NCBI GenBank assembly: GCA_902526165.1
Contig: CABZKA010000009.1
Location: forward strand, 1 to 59,281
Direction of reading: 5' to 3'
DNA: 59,281 nucleotides
Source: an uncultured Bacteroidota bacterium
Lineage (GTDB): Bacteria; Bacteroidota; Bacteroidia; Flavobacteriales; Flavobacteriaceae
How positions within the stretch are numbered: position 1 is the stretch's first letter; each line of letters begins with the position of its first letter. Below are positions 41,287 to 56,453 of this stretch, piece by piece. A program made the translations under genes and the position numbers. The notes beneath the pieces are model-generated. The model was given only the letters and a program-made list of their open reading frames with translations, searched no databases and was not told the DNA's origin.

Positions 41287-41347
41287 GAATAATTAATTTT
41301 TTTTTAAACCTGAATTGAATAAAAAGATAACTAAATTTAAAGGATAT

Positions 41348-44300
41348 ATGTTTTTAATTTTTGATACTGAAACAACAGGATTGCCTAAAAGGTGGGACGC
41401 CCCTATCAGTGATTTAAACAATTGGCCAAGAGTAGTACAGCTAGCATGGCAGCTTCACGATGAGGATGGAGGTTTAGTATCTAATAAAACCTACGTCATA
41501 AAACCAGTTGATTTTGATATTCCGTTCGAGTCTGAAAAGGTTCATGGAATTTCAACGCTGTTGGCAACTCAAATGGGAGAAAAAATTCAAACTGTTTTTA
41601 GCGAATTTTTAAAGGATCTTTCATCTGCGAGTTATATAGTTGGACACAATTTAAAGTTTGACATTAATGTTGTATCATCTGAGCTTTACAGACTTGATAT
41701 TGAAAATCAACTGCTAAATAAAAAAGTTTTAGATACTTGTACAGAAAATACGGCAAATGTTTGCAAATTATCTGGTGGTAAATCTGGTAAATTTAAGTTT
41801 CCAACACTTGTTGAACTTTATGAAAATCTCTTTAACAATCATTTTGAGAATGCACACAATGCGTCGGCAGATGTAGAAGCTAATGCGATGGTATTTTTCG
41901 AGCTAATTCGTCAAAAATTATTTGATAATAGTTTGATAGATGAACATGATGTTATATATCAAAAAGTTTCAGAAAAATTTTCAGGGCAAGTTTCAAATTT
42001 TGGGATTGTTCATACAAACTTAAAAGAAGAGTCAAAAAAACTAAAACATCTGAACTACACTGAACAGGAAACAAATAAAGACTCAGGTCATAATGATTTT
42101 AAATCTGACTATGTGCATCTTCATAATAATTCTCAATTTTCTATTTTACAATCAACAACAAAGATATCTGATCTAGTAAAAAAGACCTCTGAACAAAAAA
42201 TGAGTGCTGTAGCACTAACAGATAAAGCCAATATGATGGGGTGTTTTCATTTTTATAGAGCTGTAAAAAACTACAATGATGGTTTAAATAATCAAAATGA
42301 AAAAATCAAACCAATACTTGGATGTGAATTAAATGTTTGCGAGAACAGATTGGATAAATCTTACAGGGATGATGGTTATCAAATTGTTTTCCTAGCAAAA
42401 AACAAGGTGGGTTATGAAAACCTCATGAAAATGTGTTCGATTGGATACACTGAGGGGTTTTATTATGTGCCAAGAATTGATAAAGATTTAGTAAAAAAAT
42501 ATAGAGATGGATTGATTGTTCTTTCAGGCTCTAAATATGGTGAAATATCAAATAAAATAATTAATGTTGGAGAAAAACAAGCTTCAGATGCATGTCTTTG
42601 GTGGAAAGAAAATTTTTCAAATGATTTTTATTTAGAAATGAATAATCACGGGGAAGAGGAAAATGAAATAATTAATGCACAACTTTCAAAATTCTCAAAA
42701 ATTCACGGTGTTAAACTAATTGCCACGAACAACACTAAATATATTTGTAAAGAGGATGCTAATGCTCATGATATTTTACTTTGTGTAAAAGATGGACAAC
42801 AACAGTCAACACCAATAGGTCGAGGTAGAGGTTTTAGATATGGTCTTAAAAATCAGGAATACTATTTCAAGACAAAAGAAGAAATGTCCAAAATCTTTGA
42901 AAACTATCCTGACGCAATAAATAATATTTCTGAGTTAGTTGATAAGGTTGAGTTTTATGATTTAAGCAGAGAGGTTTTACTACCCAAGTTTTCAATTCCT
43001 GATAATTTTGAACCAAAATCAAATGATATTGAAAATGAATATTTAAAACATTTAACATATAAGGGTGCAGATGAAAAATATGAAAATATAAATAATGATC
43101 TTAAAGAAAAAATAGATTTTGAATTGGGAGTTATCAAAAACTCTGGTTATCCAGGCTATTTTTTGATTGTTCAAGACTTAATCAATGCAGCAAAGGAAAT
43201 GGGAGTTTCGGTCGGTCCTGGAAGAGGCTCAGTTGCAGGATCAATAGTAGCCTATTGCCTTGGAATAACTAAAGTTGATCCCATAAAATATGATTTACTT
43301 TTTGAAAGATTCTTAAATCCTGACAGAGTAAGTATGCCTGATATAGATATTGATTTTGACGATGATGGCAGGGGGAAAGTTATTGATTATGTTATTGAAA
43401 AGTATGGATCTAATCAAGTTGCACAAATTGTTACATATGGAAAAATGGCTGCAAAATCTTCAATACGAGATACAGCCCGAGTTTTGGACTTATCACTCTC
43501 TGACGCAGATTATTTGGCAAAGTTAGTTCCAAACATGACCAAGCTTTCTGATATATTCGAATCTGATAAAAAGAAATTGAGTTCATCGATGAGATCAGAT
43601 GATTTTTCAAATGCAGTTGAATTAAAAAATATTGCTGACGGAGATAATCTTCAGTCTGAAACAATTAATCAAGCAAGAGTGTTGGAGGGCAGTCTTAGAA
43701 ATGTTGGTGTTCATGCATGTGGAGTAATAATCACACCTGACGAGATAACAAAATTTGTCCCAATTGCAACCGCCAAAGACTCAGATTTAGTTGTAACACA
43801 ATATGATAATTCAGTAGTTGAAAATGCTGGGCTTTTAAAAATGGATTTTCTTGGGCTAAAAACTTTGACTCTGATAAAAGACACAATCAAATTAATAAAA
43901 TACAGACACAAAAAGGATATCGATATTGATAACATTTCTTTGGATGACCTAAAAACATATGAGTTATTTCAAAAAGGAGATACAGTTGGGATTTTTCAAT
44001 ATGAAAGTCTTGGAATGCAAAAATATTTAAGAGATTTAAAACCCACTGTATTTGAGGACTTAATTGCAATGAATGCTTTGTATAGACCAGGACCTCTCGA
44101 ATACATCCCATCATTTGTTCGTCGAAAAAATGGAACAGAGAAAATAAAATATGATATACCTGAAATGGAAGAGTTTCTTAAAGAAACTTATGGTATTACA
44201 GTTTATCAAGAGCAAGTAATGCAACTTTCTCAAAAGCTAGCTAATTTTTCAAAGGGTGATGCCGATACATTAAGAAAGGCTATGGGGAAAAAAATATTTT

Positions 44301-45658
44301 CATTACTAGAAAAATTAAAACCAAAATTTATTAAGGGTGGCAAATCAAATGGATATGACTCTGAAATATTAGAAAAAATATGGAAAGACTGGGAAGCATT
44401 CGCATCCTACGCATTTAATAAATCACATTCTACTTGTTATGCCTTAATTGCATATCAGACAGCATATTTAAAAGCACACTATCCCTCAGAATATATGGCT
44501 GCTGTTTTATCAAATAACATGAATGATATAAAACAAGTTAGTTTTTTTATGGAGGAGTGTAAATACATGTCAATTGATGTTCTTGGTCCAGATATTAATG
44601 AGTCAATTTTTAAATTTAACGTTAACGAAAATAATTCAATTCGTTTTGGAATGGGTGCTGTCAAAGGAGTGGGACAAGGTGCTGTTAAGGCTATTGTAGA
44701 GGGCAGGAAAAGTGGTAAGTACAAATCAATTTTTGATTTTGCAAAAAGAGTTGATTTAAGATCAGCAAATAAAAAAGCATTTGACAGCTTGGTTTTAGCA
44801 GGCGCTTTTGATTCAGTTGATAAAGCACACAGAGCCCAGTATTTTTATGAAAACGGAGATGGTGTGACTTTTGTTGAAAAGGCAATCAGGTTTGGTTCAA
44901 AATTCCAGCAAAGAGAAAATTCACCACAAACTAGTTTGTTTTCTGATGCTGATGAAATAAAAATAAGTGAACCAAATTTTCCTGAGTGCGATAAATGGTC
45001 TAAACTGGATCAGCTTAAAAAAGAGAAAGATGTAGTGGGGATTTACATTTCAGGCCATCCTTTGGATGATTATTTGGACACACTTAAATTCCTAACCAAT
45101 ATTCACTTGAACGATTTAAAAGATTTAAGAAAACTTATCGATAAAGAGGTAAGAATTGGTGGAATTATTGGGGAAGTTCAACATAAAATATCGAAGAATG
45201 GAAGAGGGTGGGCAACATTCATTATTGAAGATTATTTTGAGTCATATGAGTTGAGAATTTTTGGGGAAGATTATTTAAAATTTAAACATTTTCTTGTTGA
45301 AAACAATTTTGTTCATATCAAGATGTACATAAAAGAGGGATGGAAAAATGCTGATACTGGTAGACTAGGAGATCCAAGAATCCAATTCCTAAATTTCCAG
45401 CAGCTTCAAGATACCCTAAGTTCAAATACAAAAAAAATATCTATAAAAATAGATGCTCAATTAATTGAGGAAGATCATATTGATTATTTTAAAAAATTAG
45501 TAAAAAAACACAAGGGTGATCAAGAAATTGTATTTAATTTATCGGCAAATGGTAATGGATTGAATATTAACCTATATTCTGTAAAAAATAAGGTTAAAAT
45601 CACTGAGGAATTAATTAAATCTTTGAAAGAAAAAAAATTAGAATTTAGATTAAACTAG
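41348..45658 (+). CDS. dnaE: DNA polymerase III alpha subunit with fused N-terminal DEDDh exonuclease
   Basis: I choose the ATG at 41348 (MFLIFDTETTG), where Bacteroidetes homologues start, giving 1436 residues; the TTG at 41315 adds 11 residues. Residues 1-190 are a complete proofreading exonuclease (D6, E8, D105, H170, D175). The polymerase follows: a PHP domain, the catalytic PDIDIDFDDDGRG, SVGPGRGSVAGSIVAYCLG, the fingers QEQVMQLSQKLANFS, and an OB fold after GHPLDDY. The PHP region reads HLHNNSQFSIL and LTDKANMMG, so two usual metal histidines are Asn and Lys; its own nuclease activity is doubtful. It is divergent from rpsP. Confidence 0.97.
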   Translation: MFLIFDTETTGLPKRWDAPISDLNNWPRVVQLAWQLHDEDGGLVSNKTYVIKPVDFDIPFESEKVHGISTLLATQMGEKIQTVFSEFLKDLSSASYIVGHNLKFDINVVSSELYRLDIENQLLNKKVLDTCTENTANVCKLSGGKSGKFKFPTLVELYENLFNNHFENAHNASADVEANAMVFFELIRQKLFDNSLIDEHDVIYQKVSEKFSGQVSNFGIVHTNLKEESKKLKHLNYTEQETNKDSGHNDFKSDYVHLHNNSQFSILQSTTKISDLVKKTSEQKMSAVALTDKANMMGCFHFYRAVKNYNDGLNNQNEKIKPILGCELNVCENRLDKSYRDDGYQIVFLAKNKVGYENLMKMCSIGYTEGFYYVPRIDKDLVKKYRDGLIVLSGSKYGEISNKIINVGEKQASDACLWWKENFSNDFYLEMNNHGEEENEIINAQLSKFSKIHGVKLIATNNTKYICKEDANAHDILLCVKDGQQQSTPIGRGRGFRYGLKNQEYYFKTKEEMSKIFENYPDAINNISELVDKVEFYDLSREVLLPKFSIPDNFEPKSNDIENEYLKHLTYKGADEKYENINNDLKEKIDFELGVIKNSGYPGYFLIVQDLINAAKEMGVSVGPGRGSVAGSIVAYCLGITKVDPIKYDLLFERFLNPDRVSMPDIDIDFDDDGRGKVIDYVIEKYGSNQVAQIVTYGKMAAKSSIRDTARVLDLSLSDADYLAKLVPNMTKLSDIFESDKKKLSSSMRSDDFSNAVELKNIADGDNLQSETINQARVLEGSLRNVGVHACGVIITPDEITKFVPIATAKDSDLVVTQYDNSVVENAGLLKMDFLGLKTLTLIKDTIKLIKYRHKKDIDIDNISLDDLKTYELFQKGDTVGIFQYESLGMQKYLRDLKPTVFEDLIAMNALYRPGPLEYIPSFVRRKNGTEKIKYDIPEMEEFLKETYGITVYQEQVMQLSQKLANFSKGDADTLRKAMGKKIFSLLEKLKPKFIKGGKSNGYDSEILEKIWKDWEAFASYAFNKSHSTCYALIAYQTAYLKAHYPSEYMAAVLSNNMNDIKQVSFFMEECKYMSIDVLGPDINESIFKFNVNENNSIRFGMGAVKGVGQGAVKAIVEGRKSGKYKSIFDFAKRVDLRSANKKAFDSLVLAGAFDSVDKAHRAQYFYENGDGVTFVEKAIRFGSKFQQRENSPQTSLFSDADEIKISEPNFPECDKWSKLDQLKKEKDVVGIYISGHPLDDYLDTLKFLTNIHLNDLKDLRKLIDKEVRIGGIIGEVQHKISKNGRGWATFIIEDYFESYELRIFGEDYLKFKHFLVENNFVHIKMYIKEGWKNADTGRLGDPRIQFLNFQQLQDTLSSNTKKISIKIDAQLIEEDHIDYFKKLVKKHKGDQEIVFNLSANGNGLNINLYSVKNKVKITEELIKSLKEKKLEFRLN

Positions 45659-47792: not shown

Positions 47793-49640
47793 TTACTCCA
47801 CTGTAACAGACTTAGCTAAGTTTCTCGGCTGATCAATGCTACATCCCTTGAAATCTGCAATGTAATATGATAAAAGTTGTAATGGAATATTAGCGAGAAT
47901 AGGACTAATCAATTCGTGGCATTCAGGAATTTCAATAAAATCATCGGAAATTTTCTTAATTTCTTTATCACCCTCTGTAACAATAGAAATTACTTTACCT
48001 CCTCTTGCTTTAATTTCCATTACGTTACTTACAATTTTTTTGTAGTTACCTTTTTTTGTTGCAACAACAACAACAGGCATATTCTTATCTATGAGAGCGA
48101 TAGGTCCATGTTTCATTTCAGCTGCAGGATAACCTTCCGCATGTATATATGAAATCTCTTTTAACTTTAATGCACCCTCTAAAGCTACAGGAAAATTATA
48201 CCCTCTTCCCAGATACAAAAAGTTCTTAGATTTTGAGTAGTTTTTTGCGATTTCTTCAATCTTATCAGATTTTTTCAGAATTTTTTCTACATGATCTGAT
48301 AAGCTTTGAACTCCCTCAATAATTTCACTGTATTGGGATTTTGTAATTTTTTTTAGCTTATAACCAATTTCAGTTGCTATTATTAGCATGGTTACGGCTT
48401 GACAAGTAAAGGCTTTTGTTGACGCAACTCCAATCTCGGGTCCTGCGTGTGTATAAATTCCTGAGTTGGTCTCTCTTGCAATTGATGAACCAACAACATT
48501 ACAAATGCCATAAATAAATGCACTCATTTCTTTAGCCAATTTAAGCGCCGCTATAGTATCGGCGGTCTCACCAGACTGTGATACAGGGATAACAATATCA
48601 TCTTTATAAATAATAGGATTTCTATATCTAAATTCTGATGCATATTCGACTTCTACAGGGATTCTAGCCAATTCCTCAAAGTAATATTCACCAAGTAAGC
48701 TAGCGTGCCAGGATGTTCCACATGAAATAAAAATCAATCTGTTACTTTTCTTAAATTTTTCCCAGTATTCTTCTACTGAAGATATCTTAATTTTTGGTGG
48801 ATTTGAAAAAATTCTACCCCGTAAAGAATCATTGATACATTTTGGTTGTTCAAATATTTCCTTAAGCATAAAGTGTTTGAAACCACCTTTTTCTACCTGT
48901 TCAATTTGAAGCTTCAACTTTTCAATTTTTTGATCTTTTATACGATTAGTTCTAAAATCACGAAGTATAAGTCCTTTTTTTCTACTCAATATTGCGAGCT
49001 CATAATCATTTAAATACAGACAACGATTGGTTTCTTTAATAAATGGAGAAGGATCAGAGCCTACAAAAAAATCTTTTCCTTTTAAGCCAATTGCTAAGGG
49101 ACTACCCAACTTAGCTACAACAAGTTCATCAGGTGAATCCTTATCAAAAACAACAATCGCAAAAGCACCAACAACTTGATTTAATGCAATTTGTGTGGCC
49201 TTCCCAATTTTTAATGATGGATTACTTTTTTTTACCTCTTCAATTAAGTTAACAAGGACTTCAGTATCAGTTTCAGATTGAAAAGTATAACCCTTCCCAA
49301 TCAAAATTTGTTTAATGGAATCATAGTTTTCAATTATTCCATTATGAACAATAAATATTTTTCCATTGTTTGACGTATGTGGGTGTGAATTTTTAGTGTT
49401 GGGAATGCCATGTGTTGCCCATCGGGTGTGACCCATACCAATTGTACAAGAATTTAAATTATTATCACGCATTTTCTTTTCTAAATCAACAACCTTTCCT
49501 TTGCATTTTCTTAAATAACCTTTAGAATTAAATAAAAAAGCACCAGCTGAGTCATATCCCCTGTATTCAAGTTTTTTCAAACCATCAATTATAAAATCTT
49601 TGGTCGGTTTTTCCCCAATATATCCAACTATACCACACAT
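47793..49640 (-). CDS. glmS: Glutamine-fructose-6-phosphate aminotransferase (isomerizing)
   Basis: GlmS makes glucosamine-6-phosphate from fructose-6-phosphate and glutamine. The 615-residue protein has the N-terminal amidotransferase nucleophile at Cys2 (MCGIVGYIGEKP). Further blocks are EYRGYDSAGAFL, GHTRWATHG, and two SIS domains (SCGTSWHASLLGEYYFEE and later GRGYNFPVALEGALKLKE). The end DQPRNLAKSVTVE is the standard family terminus. It starts two bases after the acetyltransferase gene that may use its product. Confidence 0.98.
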   Translation of the reverse strand: MCGIVGYIGEKPTKDFIIDGLKKLEYRGYDSAGAFLFNSKGYLRKCKGKVVDLEKKMRDNNLNSCTIGMGHTRWATHGIPNTKNSHPHTSNNGKIFIVHNGIIENYDSIKQILIGKGYTFQSETDTEVLVNLIEEVKKSNPSLKIGKATQIALNQVVGAFAIVVFDKDSPDELVVAKLGSPLAIGLKGKDFFVGSDPSPFIKETNRCLYLNDYELAILSRKKGLILRDFRTNRIKDQKIEKLKLQIEQVEKGGFKHFMLKEIFEQPKCINDSLRGRIFSNPPKIKISSVEEYWEKFKKSNRLIFISCGTSWHASLLGEYYFEELARIPVEVEYASEFRYRNPIIYKDDIVIPVSQSGETADTIAALKLAKEMSAFIYGICNVVGSSIARETNSGIYTHAGPEIGVASTKAFTCQAVTMLIIATEIGYKLKKITKSQYSEIIEGVQSLSDHVEKILKKSDKIEEIAKNYSKSKNFLYLGRGYNFPVALEGALKLKEISYIHAEGYPAAEMKHGPIALIDKNMPVVVVATKKGNYKKIVSNVMEIKARGGKVISIVTEGDKEIKKISDDFIEIPECHELISPILANIPLQLLSYYIADFKGCSIDQPRNLAKSVTVE

Positions 49641-49642
49641 AA

Positions 49643-50044
49643 TTATATTCTCATTATCATTTCAAATTCATTTTTTTGGAATCCTAATTTTTCATAAAAT
49701 TTAAGATTTTTTTCACTAGAGCTCAAAATAATTTTATCACAATTATTCTTTTTAGCTTTTTCAATTAGATTCTTTACCAAAAGTTTACCAATACCTTTTC
49801 CTCTCTGATTTTCTTTAACAACAACATCCTCAATTATCCCACTCTTTCTGGTAATTTTTTTGATGTAATGAATAGAAGCATAACCTAATACATTACCTTC
49901 CTCCATAGCAACTATACCATCAACTTCATTACTAGAAAAAATTGATTCATTAATTTCTTTGTCATAGTTGTTACTAAAGGAATCAATCAGTATGTTGACA
50001 ACATCTGTTGAGTGCGACTTATCTAAGCTTTTTACAGTTATCAT
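49643..50044 (-). CDS. GNAT acetyltransferase resembling eukaryotic GNA1 (putative glucosamine-6-phosphate N-acetyltransferase)
   Basis: The 133-residue single GNAT domain contains GIIEDVVVKENQRGKGIGKL (69-88), with the acetyl-CoA pyrophosphate loop at QRGKGIG. It then has CDKIILSSSEKNLKFYEKLG (102-121). Eukaryotic GNA1 has the same run: EDVVV, RGKxLGKLL, a C-x-KI element, then a FYxKxGF end. The position fits: two bases upstream of glmS, whose product is the GNA1 substrate. Bacteria normally acetylate glucosamine-1-phosphate on GlmU. The function is inferred from these similarities; generic GNATs share part of the motif, so the specificity needs testing. Confidence 0.7.
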   Translation of the reverse strand: MITVKSLDKSHSTDVVNILIDSFSNNYDKEINESIFSSNEVDGIVAMEEGNVLGYASIHYIKKITRKSGIIEDVVVKENQRGKGIGKLLVKNLIEKAKKNNCDKIILSSSEKNLKFYEKLGFQKNEFEMIMRI

Positions 50045-50181: not shown

Positions 50182-51561
50182 TTATATAACAATTCCTAAC
50201 TTCTCAGTTTCTTTCCATTTTCCTCTTGTAAAATCAGGAAACTCTTGTGGTTTTCCATCGTCCAAAATTGATTGTTTTGAAAGTGGAGCTACAGCAGACC
50301 AAAAACAACCTTCGTAAACATTTTGGTCGAGTGGCAATCCATTATTTAGACACTCTACAATTCTATACATCATGATCCCATCCATACCTCCATGACCACT
50401 TCTTACAGTTTTTTTATTGAGTTTTTTATAAAGTGGATGATCATATTTTTCATACAATCTCATTAAATCTTCATTTTCTATCCAGCTGTGGTGATCTTTT
50501 GTAATATCCTCAAAACCATTTTCTAAAGCAACTCTTACTGGAAAACCTGCAAGGGTTCCTCTTGTACCTTGAATTAAATTTAATCTGGTATATGGTCTGG
50601 GACTTGTTTCATCCCATTGTACTAATATTGTCCTTCCAATTTTTGTTTTAATTATTGAACTATTAATATCACCGTTTTCAAAAGATATATTTTTCCAGGA
50701 ATTGCTCTCACTCAAATTTTCTTGTGAGTATTGGTTTCTCCCAAGTGCAGGACTTGAATATGAAACAATTTTATGAAAATTATCGTCTGATCTACAAAGA
50801 TTCATGTATTGTGCAACTGGCCCTAGACCATGCGTAGGATATATATTCCCATTCTTTTCTCTGTAAAAATCTGTTCTCCAAGATCCCATCCTTGTCTGAT
50901 CGTGATCCATTTGCCAGCGAAGATCGTGTATATATGCAGCCTCCCCATGTAACAATTCGCCAATAACTCCTTTTCTACACATGTTTAAAAACATCAATTC
51001 ATCACGTCCATAATTTACATTTTCAAGCATCATACAGTGTTTCTGATATTTTTCAGAAATATTAATTATTTCCCATAGCTCATTGAGCTCAAGTGAAAAT
51101 GGAACCTCACAAAAAACATGGCAGCCTTTTTTAATGCATTCTTTAATCATTGGTGCATGACTTTCCCAGTCAGTGGAAATGAAAACAACATCTGGTTTAA
51201 CCTCATCAATCATTTTAATCCATTCTTTTTTTGAGCCCCAATAATTCTTGAGATTTTTTAAGTTATCAGTGATTTGATATAACCTTTCCAATTCTCTTTT
51301 CAGCGTCGATTCATATATATCACAAAGACCGACAACCTCAGTATTTTTAAGACTGGCAAAATTTCTTAAATGCGTTCCTCCTCGGTTGAGGCCAATGAAT
51401 GCAGCTTTGATATTTGAAATGGGGTTAGTTTTAAATCCACCGAGATATTTACCTTGATTAGATTGATTAAGATTGTTTTGACAATTAATACTTAAGGTAG
51501 ATGTTGCTATTGCACCTAATGAAGATGTTTTTATGAATTTCCTTCTATTTAAATTTGACAT
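50182..51561 (-). CDS. GH109-like glycosidase (putative alpha-N-acetylgalactosaminidase)
   Basis: The 459-residue protein has a Rossmann fold and looks like an oxidoreductase, but its details match glycoside hydrolase family 109, which uses bound NAD+ to hydrolyse alpha-GalNAc. Evidence: a twin-arginine signal (NRRKFIKTSS, R6-R7), an NAD motif GLNRGG (57-62), MLENVNYGRDELMFLNM, GELLHGEAAYIHDLRWQM and NIYPTHGLGPVAQYMN (family blocks). It is adjacent to the esterase gene and is the last of the symporter operon. Export through Tat with cofactor is usual for GH109. Confidence 0.85.
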   Translation of the reverse strand: MSNLNRRKFIKTSSLGAIATSTLSINCQNNLNQSNQGKYLGGFKTNPISNIKAAFIGLNRGGTHLRNFASLKNTEVVGLCDIYESTLKRELERLYQITDNLKNLKNYWGSKKEWIKMIDEVKPDVVFISTDWESHAPMIKECIKKGCHVFCEVPFSLELNELWEIINISEKYQKHCMMLENVNYGRDELMFLNMCRKGVIGELLHGEAAYIHDLRWQMDHDQTRMGSWRTDFYREKNGNIYPTHGLGPVAQYMNLCRSDDNFHKIVSYSSPALGRNQYSQENLSESNSWKNISFENGDINSSIIKTKIGRTILVQWDETSPRPYTRLNLIQGTRGTLAGFPVRVALENGFEDITKDHHSWIENEDLMRLYEKYDHPLYKKLNKKTVRSGHGGMDGIMMYRIVECLNNGLPLDQNVYEGCFWSAVAPLSKQSILDDGKPQEFPDFTRGKWKETEKLGIVI

Positions 51562-52470
51562 TTACTTCAAATATTTTTCAAAAAAAGACCAAATTTCTTC
51601 ACTAGCACTTATATCCATATTTCCCCAAGCACCAGGCCATGTATGTCCACCCCCATAGACAGTATATAACCATACTTCATTATGTTGGTTCTCATTGTAG
51701 TTTTTTTCTAAGACCACATATGAATTATCATTTTGATTAACATTAGCAATTCTTATAATTTCTTTTTTATCGCATGAATTCAAACTAGACCAGTATTCAA
51801 TAATTTTATTTATGTTAGGTGCACCTCCCCATCCTCCAGCATTTGACATCGAACCATCCATCGGGACTACATAATCAACAGTTCCCGAAAGCTGTAATAT
51901 TGGAATTGGTTTTTCTGGATCACAATTTCTCCAATCATAACCACTCATCGTTCCTGTAACACTTGCAATTGCACTGAAAACATTTGATTTTTCGCACGCG
52001 AGTGTATAACTCATAAATCCTCCATTTGACATTCCACTAACAAAGGTATTTTCTTTGCTTAAATTATGTTCAGCTTGCAAAAAAGTTGCAAGTTTTGATA
52101 AGAAGTCGGTATCTTTGACGTTACTCATTTCTTTAAGGTTTGCGTTCCAGTGAGTACTGCTAGTATAATAATTTATGGAGCCTTGGGGATAACAGACTGC
52201 AAATCCATTTCTATTAGCAATATCATTCATTTGAGAATATCTCATGATATTTTTTGAGTTACTTCCATATCCATGTAATACAAAAATCAGGGGTGCATCA
52301 TCTTTAAGATTGTTGGGCTTATATAGTGTATAACTTCGGTTAATTCCATCATGGTTGAATAAGTAATCTAATGGGTATGAAATTTCAATTTGATTATTTT
52401 CAATCTCATTATTTGTATTACAAGAAAATATAAAAAGTATTAAAAACAATAATTTAAAGAAATATCTCAA
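51562..52470 (-). CDS. Lipoprotein esterase of the PHB depolymerase / CE1-like family
   Basis: The 302 residues start with a lipobox (LFIFSC, C17). The alpha/beta hydrolase core has the oxyanion VLHGYGSN (H66, G67), the nucleophile elbow GMSNG with S148, D199 in GTVDYVV and H276 in GGGHTWPG. The GGGHTWPG ending is diagnostic of the LpqC / poly(3-hydroxybutyrate) depolymerase and feruloyl-esterase-like group. In this operon a role in deacylating a polysaccharide is more likely than PHB degradation (inference). Confidence 0.88.
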   Translation of the reverse strand: MRYFFKLLFLILFIFSCNTNNEIENNQIEISYPLDYLFNHDGINRSYTLYKPNNLKDDAPLIFVLHGYGSNSKNIMRYSQMNDIANRNGFAVCYPQGSINYYTSSTHWNANLKEMSNVKDTDFLSKLATFLQAEHNLSKENTFVSGMSNGGFMSYTLACEKSNVFSAIASVTGTMSGYDWRNCDPEKPIPILQLSGTVDYVVPMDGSMSNAGGWGGAPNINKIIEYWSSLNSCDKKEIIRIANVNQNDNSYVVLEKNYNENQHNEVWLYTVYGGGHTWPGAWGNMDISASEEIWSFFEKYLK

Positions 52471-52479
52471 AATAATAAA

Positions 52480-53772
52480 TTATGAAGAACCCGGTCTTGG
52501 TATTTTGTATAGTCCATTTGAATCAGGAAGGGTGGGGGGATTTGAATTCCAACTTAAATTTTTTGGAATCATATTATCATCTGCGCTCATGGCATCCTCC
52601 CAGTTTATAATTTTTCCTGTGTATGTTGCCATTCTTCCCATTATAGATGTCAATGTAGCTTTTGCTCCGTTTTCTCCGTCATTAATATACCCTCCACCTC
52701 TGAGGCTTTTAAAAAGTTCATTATGTTCAATTTGGTAAGGACTTTCATCTCCTCTTTGATTGTATTGAAACAATATATCACCATTATGGCTTTTTATGGT
52801 GGCGTTTCCATTTCCACTTATTTCTAAGATTCCTTTTGTCCCAATAATTGTTTCATTGACTTGTCTGTGTGTATTTGGCTGATGCCTGCATTGACTGGAA
52901 ACAATCGCACCACTTTTATATTTAAACTCTACGTAATGATGATCGAATATTTCTCCAAATTTTTTGTCTTTTCTAATCTCTCTCCCACCCATCCCTTGTG
53001 CTGTATCTGGATATTCGTTTAAAAACCAATTAGCAACATCAAGGTTATGAATATGTTGTTCGCATATATGATCACCACACAGCCAATTAAAATAATACCA
53101 GTTTCTCATCTGATACTCCATCTCAGTTTGACTCATTTCTCTTTCTTTGACCCAGACTCCTCCACTATTCCATCTCACATGAGCAGAAATTATCTTTCCA
53201 ATGATACCTCTATCAATTTGTTTTTTTGCACTTAGGTAACTTTTTTGATAACGCCTTTGTAGACCAACCACAACATTCAAGTTTTTTTCTTTTGCAATCT
53301 TAGCAGATTTTAAAACTTGTCTAACTCCATGAGCATCCGTTGCAACAGGCTTTTCCATAAAGACATGTTTATTTTTATTTATGGCATACTCAAATTGAGA
53401 AGGTCGAAATCCTGGTGGACTTGCAAGGATAACTACATCAGACTTATCAATTGCTTTTTTATAGGCATCAAAACCAACAAACTTATTTTTTTCTTTAATG
53501 TTAATTTCTTTTTCCCCGGCAAACTCATCTTTTATAGCATTTAAGCTCATTTCCAAGCGATCTTCAAATGCATCAGCCATAGCAATTAGCTCTGTGTTGT
53601 CATCAGCTCTGAGAGCTTCAACTGTCGCTCCTGAACCTCTTCCGCCACAACCAACCACAGCAATCTTAATTTTTTTTTGATTTGACTTTTTTGATTTAAA
53701 AGTTAATTTAGGTAGTACCAATCCACCTGCAATTAACGATGAACTTTTTATAAATGATCTTCTTCTAAACAT
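52480..53772 (-). CDS. Exported Gfo/Idh/MocA-family oxidoreductase
   Basis: The 430 residues start with a twin-arginine signal (FRRRSFIKSSSLIAGG). An NAD(P) fold follows, AVVGCGGRGSGATVEALRAD, with VILASPPGFRP and the EKPVATD block (EKP is the catalytic-lysine region). The C-terminal domain contains NWYYFNWLCGDHICEQHIHN. It belongs to the exported Bacteroidetes/Planctomycetes subgroup acting on sugars or inositols; substrate unknown. It is distinct from the GH109 two genes downstream, which lacks the EKP lysine (CEVPF). Confidence 0.88.
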   Translation of the reverse strand: MFRRRSFIKSSSLIAGGLVLPKLTFKSKKSNQKKIKIAVVGCGGRGSGATVEALRADDNTELIAMADAFEDRLEMSLNAIKDEFAGEKEINIKEKNKFVGFDAYKKAIDKSDVVILASPPGFRPSQFEYAINKNKHVFMEKPVATDAHGVRQVLKSAKIAKEKNLNVVVGLQRRYQKSYLSAKKQIDRGIIGKIISAHVRWNSGGVWVKEREMSQTEMEYQMRNWYYFNWLCGDHICEQHIHNLDVANWFLNEYPDTAQGMGGREIRKDKKFGEIFDHHYVEFKYKSGAIVSSQCRHQPNTHRQVNETIIGTKGILEISGNGNATIKSHNGDILFQYNQRGDESPYQIEHNELFKSLRGGGYINDGENGAKATLTSIMGRMATYTGKIINWEDAMSADDNMIPKNLSWNSNPPTLPDSNGLYKIPRPGSS

Positions 53773-53791
53773 GCCTTTAAATTAGTGAATT

Positions 53792-54763
53792 TTAATTAAT
53801 CCAATATTTGATTTTATCCTCATCACTTGGTACTTCAACTGGCCTAACAATTCTGAAACCTAAGAATTGTGCATCAGTGTGCCACCACCTACTTCTCGGT
53901 ATTTGTGGATCTTGTTTTTTCCATTGTTTATTGGATGAAAATCTGGTAGCACTTCTCACTCTGTAATCAGGATTCATAAATGAACCACCTTTTACCACTC
54001 TTGGATACAACTTCGTGGCATAATTATGTGGGTTATATAACACACTATCTGTTTGATTTGAATAAGATTTTGCATCATACTGATCCAATGTCCATTCAGA
54101 TACATTTCCGTGCATATCGAATAATCCAAAACCATTGGGTTTTTTGGATCCAACTTTTTGATACTTACCATCACTGTTATTACTATACCAAGCATATTCA
54201 TCAAGGCTTTCAGATTTTTCATCAAAATGGTATGGACCAGTTGAGCCTGCCCTGCATGCATATTCCCATTCAGCCTCAGTTGGGAGACGATAATAGTTGC
54301 CTGTCATTGCGGATAACCATTCACAAAATTTTGATGCTGAAAGCTGCGTCATTGAGATTGCAGGGTAACCATCTGTGCCCATACCAAAGCTCATTTCTAC
54401 ATATGGTGTAGTGGCTGAACTAACTCCATCAACATCAATGTTAACTTCATTAGAAGTATTTCTAACTTGATTTTCATCAATTTCTCTGTCCATGTATAGT
54501 TGAAACAAATTCCATGTTGTTTCATGTTTTGCCATCCAAAAGGAATCAACAACAACCTTTCTTTGTGGCCCTTCATCAGCTAGCCTATTTTTCTCATTGT
54601 TAGGACTTCCCATTGCAAACTCTCCGCCAGGTATTGCTGCCATCTCAATAGAAACATTAGTACCTGGTATTTTTTGTGAATATTCTAAAAAAATCTGTTG
54701 AGAATTAATATTAATTGCCAAAAAAATAAACGATAATCTAATAACTAAAATCAATTTATTCAT
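53792..54763 (-). CDS. SUMF1/FGE-fold protein without the active-site cysteines
   Basis: The 323-residue exported protein (signal peptide about 1-21) has the FGE-sulfatase domain: [60 protein letters not shown] and [20 protein letters not shown]. In true FGE the GGSF is followed by a C-x4-C pair; here it is MNPDY. It therefore cannot be a copper FGE and probably binds a ligand or glycan. It lies between the symporter and the Gfo/Idh gene. Confidence 0.9.
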
Positions 54764-56453
54764 CAGGTGTCCTTAAGTTTTCAACAAGCTTTTTGATTTC
54801 ATTTGGAGGTTCTTTGGTAAAATTAGATACTAAAATTGAAACAGCAAAGTTTAACATCATGGCTATTGTACCAAAACCCTCTGGTGAAACACCAAAAAAC
54901 CAATTTGTTTGATCACCACCACCAAACCATCCAAACTTAAATTTTAACATGTAGAATAGCATTGATGTGATTCCAATTATCATTCCACTTATTGCCCCTT
55001 CTTTATTCATTCTTTTATAAAAAATTCCCAATACAATTGCAGGAAAAAAAGAAGCTGCTGCCAAACCAAATGCAAGAGCTACAGTTGCTGCAACAAAATC
55101 TGGTGGGTTTATTCCAAAATAACCAGCTAAAAGAACTGCAAAAAAAGCTGATATTCTAGCTGCAATTAATTCACCTTTTTCTGAAATATCTTCTTTTAAA
55201 ATTTTTTTTCTAACTAATTTTGGACTAATAATTTTTTTTATCAAATCATGTGAAATTGAAGATGAAATTACCAATAAGAGGCCAGCTGCTGTAGATAGAG
55301 CTGCTGCCAGAGCACCCGCGGCAAGTAATGCAATAACCCAATTTGGTAACTGAGCAATTTCTGGATTTGCCATAACCATAATATCTTTATCAATGGTTAA
55401 CTCATTTAATTTCTCATCCTCTAAATACTGAATAATGCCATCGTTATTTTTGTCATTAAACTTTAGCAGTTCTGTTTCCTCCCATTTTTTAAACCATGAG
55501 GGCATATCGGAATAATTTTTTTCTGAAACCGTTTCAATTAAATTTGTTCTAGCAAAAACTGCAATTGCAGGTGCTGTTGTGTAAAGTATAGCAATAAATA
55601 AAAGTGCCCACCCAGCAGATTTTCTTGCATCACTAACTTTTTTTACGGTAAAAAATCTAACAATTACGTGAGGTAAACCAGCAGTTCCAATCATCAGAGC
55701 TGCAGTAATAAAAAAAACATCAATTTTTGACTTTTTTCCTGACGTATATTCACTAAAACCTAATTCTTTATGTAATTCATTCAACTTATCAAGCAGATAA
55801 ACTCCATCTTGTGTTTCAGATCCAAAACCAAACTGAGGTATTGGATTTCCAGTCATTTGAATCGATATAAAAATTGCTGGTACCATGAATGCAAAAATTA
55901 AGACGCAGTATTGTGCAACTTGTGTATAAGTTATTCCTTTCATACCACCTAAAATTGCATAAAATAGAACAATACCCATCCCTGTAAAAACTCCATTATT
56001 TATATCAACTTCGAGATATCTGGAAAATACAATACCAACTCCTCTCATCTGACCAGCAACATATGTGAATGATACAACTAGAGCACAAAATATCGCAACA
56101 GTTCTTGCAGTATTTGAGTAATACCTGTCACCAATAAAATCAGGAACAGTAAATTTTCCAAATTTTCTCAAATAGGGAGCTAGTAATAAAGCAAGTAAAA
56201 CATAACCGCCAGTCCAACCCATTAAATAAACTGAACCATCGTAGCCAACAAAAGAGATAATCCCGGCCATTGAAATAAAAGATGCAGCACTCATCCAATC
56301 AGCTGCTGTTGCCATTCCATTAGCTATAGGATTCACTCCTTTACCTGCTATGTAGAATTCACTAGTTGAGTTAGTTTTTGACCATATGGCTATACCAATA
56401 TATAGTGCGAAAGTAAGCCCAATAATTATCCATATTGATAGTTGAAGTGACAT
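54756..56453 (-). CDS. Sodium:solute symporter, VC_2705-type, with an EF-hand loop
   Basis: The 565-residue transporter has about 13 hydrophobic helices. SSS-family sequences include [33 protein letters not shown], and [20 protein letters not shown]. The type pairs with a DUF4212 small subunit, encoded just upstream, and takes up small carboxylates or similar organic compounds with Na+. Between helices (D334-E345) is [12 protein letters not shown], a complete 12-residue EF-hand calcium loop. It overlaps the SUMF1 gene by 8 bases. Confidence 0.93.

Follow-up and report, generated by a model that had tools for sequence, protein, structure and literature searches.

A GNA1-like acetyltransferase gene coupled to glmS as a probable substitute for the GlmU acetyltransferase in marine Flavobacteriaceae-type bacteria

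The synthesis of peptidoglycan and of lipid A depends on UDP-N-acetylglucosamine (UDP-GlcNAc). GlmU is generally regarded as the bacterial enzyme for the last two steps towards this sugar nucleotide and as a drug target. GlmU is bifunctional, and its left-handed beta-helix acetyltransferase acts on glucosamine-1-phosphate (GlcN-1-P) after the mutase step. A gene pair in contig CABZKA010000009.1 (assembly GCA_902526165.1) of an uncultured Bacteroidota bacterium of the Flavobacteriaceae raises the question of whether some bacteria acetylate glucosamine-6-phosphate (GlcN-6-P) instead, using a GNAT protein that resembles the eukaryotic enzyme GNA1. The whole stretch of DNA analysed, 59,281 nucleotides long, is referred to here as the window. 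The first-pass annotation of this DNA had claimed that a 133-residue GNAT gene lies two bases upstream of glmS. The coordinates proved correct, with both genes on the minus strand, and the open reading frame and all of the quoted motifs (IEDVVV, RGKGIGKLL, CDKIIL and FYEKLGF) were confirmed in the sequence:

49643..50044, minus strand: GNA1-like GNAT, 133 aa, ATG start, proposed GlcN-6-P N-acetyltransferase
49641..49642, minus strand: 2-base spacer between the stop codon of the GNAT and the start codon of glmS, of 1-3 bases in the remaining pair genomes
47793..49640, minus strand: glmS (TIGR01135), 615 aa, ATG start, the enzyme forming GlcN-6-P

The profile search identified the 615-aa protein as GlmS (TIGR01135, 771 bits against a cut-off of 418) and the 133-aa protein as a GNAT (PF00583, 72.3 bits against 20.7). 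The latter passed no NCBIfam cut-off among the 43 matches listed, the top one being rimI with 52.7 bits against 86.4. The scan for promoters and terminators gave no signal above that of shuffled sequences.

Judging from its sequence and genomic setting, the GNAT probably catalyses the second step in making UDP-GlcNAc de novo, converting GlcN-6-P to N-acetylglucosamine-6-phosphate (GlcNAc-6-P) in place of the lost GlmU acetyltransferase. In the proposed pathway, GlmS would form GlcN-6-P from fructose-6-phosphate, and the GNAT encoded next to it in the coupled gene would acetylate it with acetyl coenzyme A (acetyl-CoA). A GlmM-type mutase would then turn GlcNAc-6-P into N-acetylglucosamine-1-phosphate (GlcNAc-1-P), from which a stand-alone uridylyltransferase, not GlmU, would make UDP-GlcNAc. 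Acetylation would precede the mutase step, an order like that of eukaryotes. We infer the activity on GlcN-6-P, the acceptance of GlcNAc-6-P by the mutase and the identity of the uridylyltransferase. Since the GNAT gene stands before glmS and the usual GlmU appears to be lost, these marine bacteria probably acetylate GlcN-6-P as yeast and animals do.

Intact members of the GNAT family were present in 15 genomes, those found in two collections being counted once: the window's own genome (G000) and G155, G156, G160, G162, G166 and G169 from one genus, together with G020, G186, G187, G189-G192 and G065. Among the loci, L122 corresponds to G160, L123 to G155, L124 to G169, L127 to G166 and L132 to G020. 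A glmS sequence directly follows the GNAT gene in 14 of the 15 genomes, and the spacing across the pair genomes is 1-3 bases. Only the first 32 glmS codons precede the contig end in G192, and 113 glmS codons were matched beside the GNAT in G166. The pairing persists down to 32% identity and in at least three gene neighbourhoods: recQ, tatC and lptB lie upstream in L128-L132 (names assigned by eye), murF lies nearby upstream in L125-L126 (names mostly by eye), and a GH109-like gene flanks the pair in the window and in closely related genomes. As the flanks differ between genomes, conservation applies to the pair and not to the genes around it. The pairing of the GNAT with glmS is more than chance.

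The same motif scan also returned 31 GNAT loci of other groups (L133-L163) with no glmS within the fetched stretch, which were set aside; many of these GNATs contain IEDVVV because the loci were selected by that scan. L133-L159 represent a widespread GNAT subfamily with IEDVVV (Clostridia, Synergistetes, Proteobacteria, Arcicella and others) and no glmS nearby.

The alignment with characterised GNA1 enzymes located the following codons in the window:

49826..49831, minus strand: E72 and D73, counterparts of Glu104 and Asp105 in C. elegans GNA1 (3- and 4-hydroxyls of the sugar)
49733..49735, minus strand: K104, counterpart of Lys136 in C. elegans GNA1 (binding of the 6-phosphate)
49694..49696, minus strand: Y117, counterpart of Tyr149 in C. 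elegans GNA1 and Tyr143 in the yeast enzyme (stabilisation of the CoA thiolate)
49649..49651, minus strand: R132, counterpart of Arg164 in C. elegans GNA1 (binding of the 6-phosphate), replaced by K in G162 and G020

E72, D73, K104 and Y117 are each invariant in 21/21 aligned family rows from the 15 genomes, and position 132 is R in 18 of these rows and K in 3. The acetyl-CoA P-loop of the GNAT fold (R/Q-x-x-G-x-G/A) is matched by RGKGIG. Thus, the residues of GNA1 that bind the sugar and the 6-phosphate and stabilise the thiolate are kept in the window GNAT as putative contacts. The first-pass annotation had raised the prospect of best matches to unrelated GNATs; the best solved-structure rows were GNA1 enzymes, both for the protein in the sequence search (top 9) and for the family profile (top 8). 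The nearest was a T. brucei GNA1 fragment (3FB3/3I3G), to which 40 of 80 aligned core residues are identical, and C. parvum GNA1 (6YUG) shares 28% identity with the window GNAT in a structural alignment. The ratio of nonsynonymous to synonymous substitution (dN/dS) of the GNAT was 0.052-0.090 in nine of the ten pairs formed by five genomes of the genus; the tenth pair, which is nearly identical and has a synonymous divergence (dS) of 0.041, gave 0.305. The GNAT is under purifying selection.

GlmU was sought by profiles only, in genomes that are mostly metagenome-assembled or derived from single cells. TIGR01173 describes the classical enzyme and TIGR03991 (alt_bact_glmU) the Bacteroidota type. 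TIGR01173 was over its cut-off in 0/40 genomes of the genus and order sample. TIGR03991 was over its cut-off in 0/23 genomes of the genus versus 13/17 order members outside it, and in 0/15 chosen genomes. When the genomes were sorted by gene content, the Bacteroidota-type GlmU was over the cut-off in none of the 14 pair genomes (nor in G065) and in 8 of 10 genomes having glmS without a window-type GNAT (Fisher p 6e-5, kinship ignored). The pair genome G020, which is 99% complete, likewise had no TIGR03991 match over the cut-off.

The Bacteroidota-type glmU adjoins rpmE in 9 of 13 GlmU loci, as in the order rpmE-glmU-mtaB of G001, and this site could be inspected directly. The rpmE stretch of G000 is sequenced (L237, G000:C7:53000-62500) and carries carB, mtaB, a binding-protein gene and rpmE, with about ten bases between the last two. 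No GlmU piece was found in this stretch, where the sole match under 1e-3 covers 25 residues within carB (2.9e-4). In the pair genome G187, a remnant of the C-terminal half of GlmU lies beside rpmE in two frames (L235:5795-6389, G187:C5); it has no N-terminal domain and its conserved residues are altered, and by its sequence the fragment is decayed. Hence, where the first-pass annotation had allowed for a normal GlmU in the genome, neither profile returned one in the genus and the usual glmU site in G000 is empty. It had proposed either a bypass of the GlmU acetyltransferase or a parallel route, of which the bypass is favoured by these two results, and its reading is supported at the genomic level. 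Also in L237 (7146-7658, G000:C7), the open reading frame of ribosomal protein L31 has a long C-terminal tail of PVEEPVAEV-like repeats.

Three small relatives, G136, G055 and G067 (L028, L031 and L041; L234, L233 and L232), have a second kind of GNA1-like GNAT, here called type B, beside rpmE at the usual place of glmU; the order in G067 is rpmE-GNAT-mtaB. The type-B proteins score 69-80 bits with the GNA1 profile and have Cys at the GNA1-cysteine position. In a 38-row tree, which contains short fragments and long branches, type B joined yeast and Arabidopsis GNA1 (87/92), apart from the window family, which formed one group (79/89). On this tree there is no firm grouping of the window family with GNA1 of eukaryotes, and such a clade is neither shown nor rejected: the tree forcing the two together was not rejected (p-AU 0.19). 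A transfer of a eukaryotic gene was considered for the window family and is unsupported, as only the type-B group joins eukaryotic GNA1 there.

Within the genus, the GNAT-glmS pair occurs in 7 of 23 genomes, while the other 16 (G149-G154, G157-G159, G161, G163-G165, G167, G168 and G170, with completeness up to 85%) contain neither glmS (0/16) nor an intact GNAT of the window family (0/16); G159 has a 53-residue GNAT piece at a contig end. The probability that glmS was missed in all 16 through incompleteness is about 7e-10, independence being assumed. Therefore, some members of the genus have truly lost glmS, and the GNAT has disappeared together with it. These members may depend on salvaged amino sugars.

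A GlmM-like piece in G000 (L014) matches TIGR03990 best, with 184 bits over 204 of 444 positions; it falls under the cut-off of 439 because it is cut by the contig end. A phosphoglucomutase-like protein is also present. LpxC and LpxD were read by eye in G000, which implies that UDP-GlcNAc is needed. A candidate for the last step is A5, a nucleotidyltransferase about 280-300 aa long, which occurs in 16 of 17 GlmU-less genomes and lies 12-18 kb from the GNAT in six. Its neighbours vary by genome and include genes for a sulfatase, a symporter, NagB/PIG-L or a GHMP kinase. In fold, A5 comes closest to UTP-dependent pyrophosphorylases, with Foldseek alone putting RmlA first. The proposed order of steps resembles that of eukaryotes. 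The remaining enzymes do not appear to be those of the eukaryotic GNA1-AGM1-UAP1 route, the mutase being GlmM-like and UAP1 (PF01704) having been found in 0/40 genomes in a search where no positive control matched.

The A5 loci (L216/L224, L220, L222, L225, L227; L115, L221, L228) place this gene beside a GHMP sugar kinase in several genomes; in the genus its neighbours on the two sides are a sulfatase and a symporter, and a NagB/PIG-L protein is encoded near it in G165 (L228). These surroundings are a possible cassette for sugar-1-phosphate activation. In the window, the region upstream of the pair (50182-56453) carries glycan-use genes, namely those of a GH109-like protein, an esterase, a Gfo/Idh/MocA protein, a sulfatase-modifying-factor-like protein and a sodium-solute symporter. 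The first of them is given for context only; it adjoins the pair only in the window and its kin and is not kept elsewhere:

50182..51561, minus strand: GH109-like Gfo/Idh/MocA protein (PF21252, 177 bits), upstream of the pair

Elsewhere in the window (41315-45658), a 1447-aa DnaE-like protein has an apparent N-terminal exonuclease-like domain, as judged by eye.

Several observations weigh against acetylation of GlcN-6-P by the GNAT and have to be set beside the alternatives. GlmM normally takes GlcN-6-P, and the mutase piece looks like GlmM. In the proposed pathway, GlcNAc-6-P would have to be the substrate of GlmM, whose usual product would lead nowhere if no enzyme acetylates GlcN-1-P. The GNAT might instead replace the GlmU acetyltransferase on GlcN-1-P, which would preserve the bacterial order (GlmS, GlmM, GNAT, uridylyltransferase) with a swapped enzyme. 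This agrees with the retention of a GlmM-like mutase, and the type-B GNAT at the glmU site is silent on which sugar phosphate is used. However, the 6-phosphate residues of GNA1 (K104, R/K132) are kept, and the gene's coupled partner is glmS, the source of GlcN-6-P, and not a mutase gene. We therefore regard the replacement on GlcN-1-P as unlikely.

Other observations concern the specificity of the GNAT. The GNA1 cysteine (Cys141 in C. elegans) is Ser109 in the window protein and S, T or A across the family. A passage on the C. elegans enzyme describes Cys141 as fully conserved and non-essential for catalysis, the C141S variant keeping about 20% efficiency, and T. brucei GNA1 likewise has Ser there; since this enzyme has no Cys and the C141S variant is active, the cysteine was not counted as defining. 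In the protein search and in the family-profile search alike, C. elegans GNA1 is placed further down, amid other GNATs, and bacterial GNATs away from glmS reach up to 71 bits with the GNA1 profile. GNA1 is a strand-swapped homodimer whose active site lies where the subunits meet, whereas the window protein was modelled as a monomer. When the predicted monomer was compared with solved structures, generic GNATs were level with GNA1 by Z (1z4e 18.4, 2dxq 17.9). For this reason, the fold cannot decide the function, and it was rejected as proof of it. As for the pairing, the short open reading frame beside the GNAT in G191 (L130:5397-5630) matches only the last 69 residues of GlmS, which from its sequence looks like a deletion or a misassembly, and in G065 the GNAT is located elsewhere, with no glmS beside it and none detected in the genome.

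These points leave room for an enzyme acting on another target, such as free glucosamine, another amino sugar from the nearby glycan-use genes or a protein (for example, GlmS), its position serving regulation or salvage. GNATs form a large family that acts on many substrates, the generic members tie in fold, and GH109-like, sulfatase-modifying-factor-like and transporter genes lie upstream in the window and its kin. Yet these glycan neighbours are not conserved, as the pair stays in L128-L132 next to recQ, tatC and lptB; moreover, the GNA1-specific residues are kept, and the acetylation step would otherwise be missing where GlmU is gone. Another target thus appears improbable, slightly more so than the GlcN-1-P alternative.

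The loss of GlmU itself is wider than the presence of the GNAT, since GlmU is also below the cut-off in the 16 genus members without the GNAT and in G180 and G181, order relatives that are 99% complete and have glmS, but neither GlmU over the cut-off nor a window-family GNAT; these two possibly have another solution for UDP-GlcNAc synthesis. The TIGR01173 scan was confined to the genus and order sample, outside which G020 and G186-G192 lie. Neither kind of GlmU was over the cut-off in G000, and the 73% completeness of this genome leaves a slight chance of a copy elsewhere. That GlmU is present in these bacteria but was missed through incompleteness or divergence, the GNAT reaction being parallel or unrelated, is very improbable given the contrast between the genus and the other order members with TIGR03991, the nearly complete pair genome G020, and the usual site, empty in G000 and decayed in G187, even though the genomes are mostly partial assemblies searched by profiles.

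With acetylation of GlcN-6-P as the preferred reading, a broader scenario can be put forward tentatively, with clearly less confidence than the reading itself. Both GlmU activities may have been replaced in marine Flavobacteriaceae-type bacteria: a GNA1-type GNAT would have taken over acetylation, and uridylyl transfer would have passed to the stand-alone nucleotidyltransferase (about 280-300 aa) of an amino-sugar cluster. The swap of the acetyltransferase would have happened twice, as the glmS-coupled window type (type A) and as type B at the glmU site by rpmE, and the relatives losing glmS would have lost the GNAT too, presumably living on salvaged amino sugars.

A 2020 survey (PMC7725333) reported FCB-group genomes without GlmS or GlmU in several cases and suggests that pathway loss is under way or that external GlcNAc is used. 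For one marine group, our reading would offer a concrete alternative to loss or uptake, in which acetylation is kept and moved to an earlier-acting, eukaryote-like enzyme, and the published gap becomes directly testable. It also cautions against inferring auxotrophy whenever an automated reconstruction of the pathway finds no GlmU. In the open-licence literature, the titles and the openings of abstracts gave no report of a GNA1-type enzyme beside glmS or replacing GlmU in bacteria.

Compared with known systems, GlmU (TIGR01173, TIGR03991) holds the same position in the pathway, as it supplies the N-acetyl group of UDP-GlcNAc. In contrast to it, the window protein is a GNAT without a uridylyltransferase domain and is proposed to act before the mutase, on GlcN-6-P. 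The type-B and window GNATs are both GNA1-like and come from the same bacterial family, but type B lies at the glmU site and not beside glmS. The Apicomplexa-specific GNA1 family, which arose independently (PMC5838249), is a precedent for a separately recruited GNAT with GNA1 activity, although it is eukaryotic and of a separate lineage; the window family would add a bacterial case. With eukaryotic GNA1/GNPNAT1 (EC 2.3.1.4), the window GNAT shares the GNAT fold, the sugar- and phosphate-binding residues, the Tyr and the C-terminal Arg, and its presumed substrate is what the adjacent gene's enzyme makes. Unlike eukaryotic GNA1, it is bacterial, 133 aa long and coupled to glmS, and has Ser for the conserved Cys, as in T. 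brucei; its likeness to GNA1 is one of sequence.
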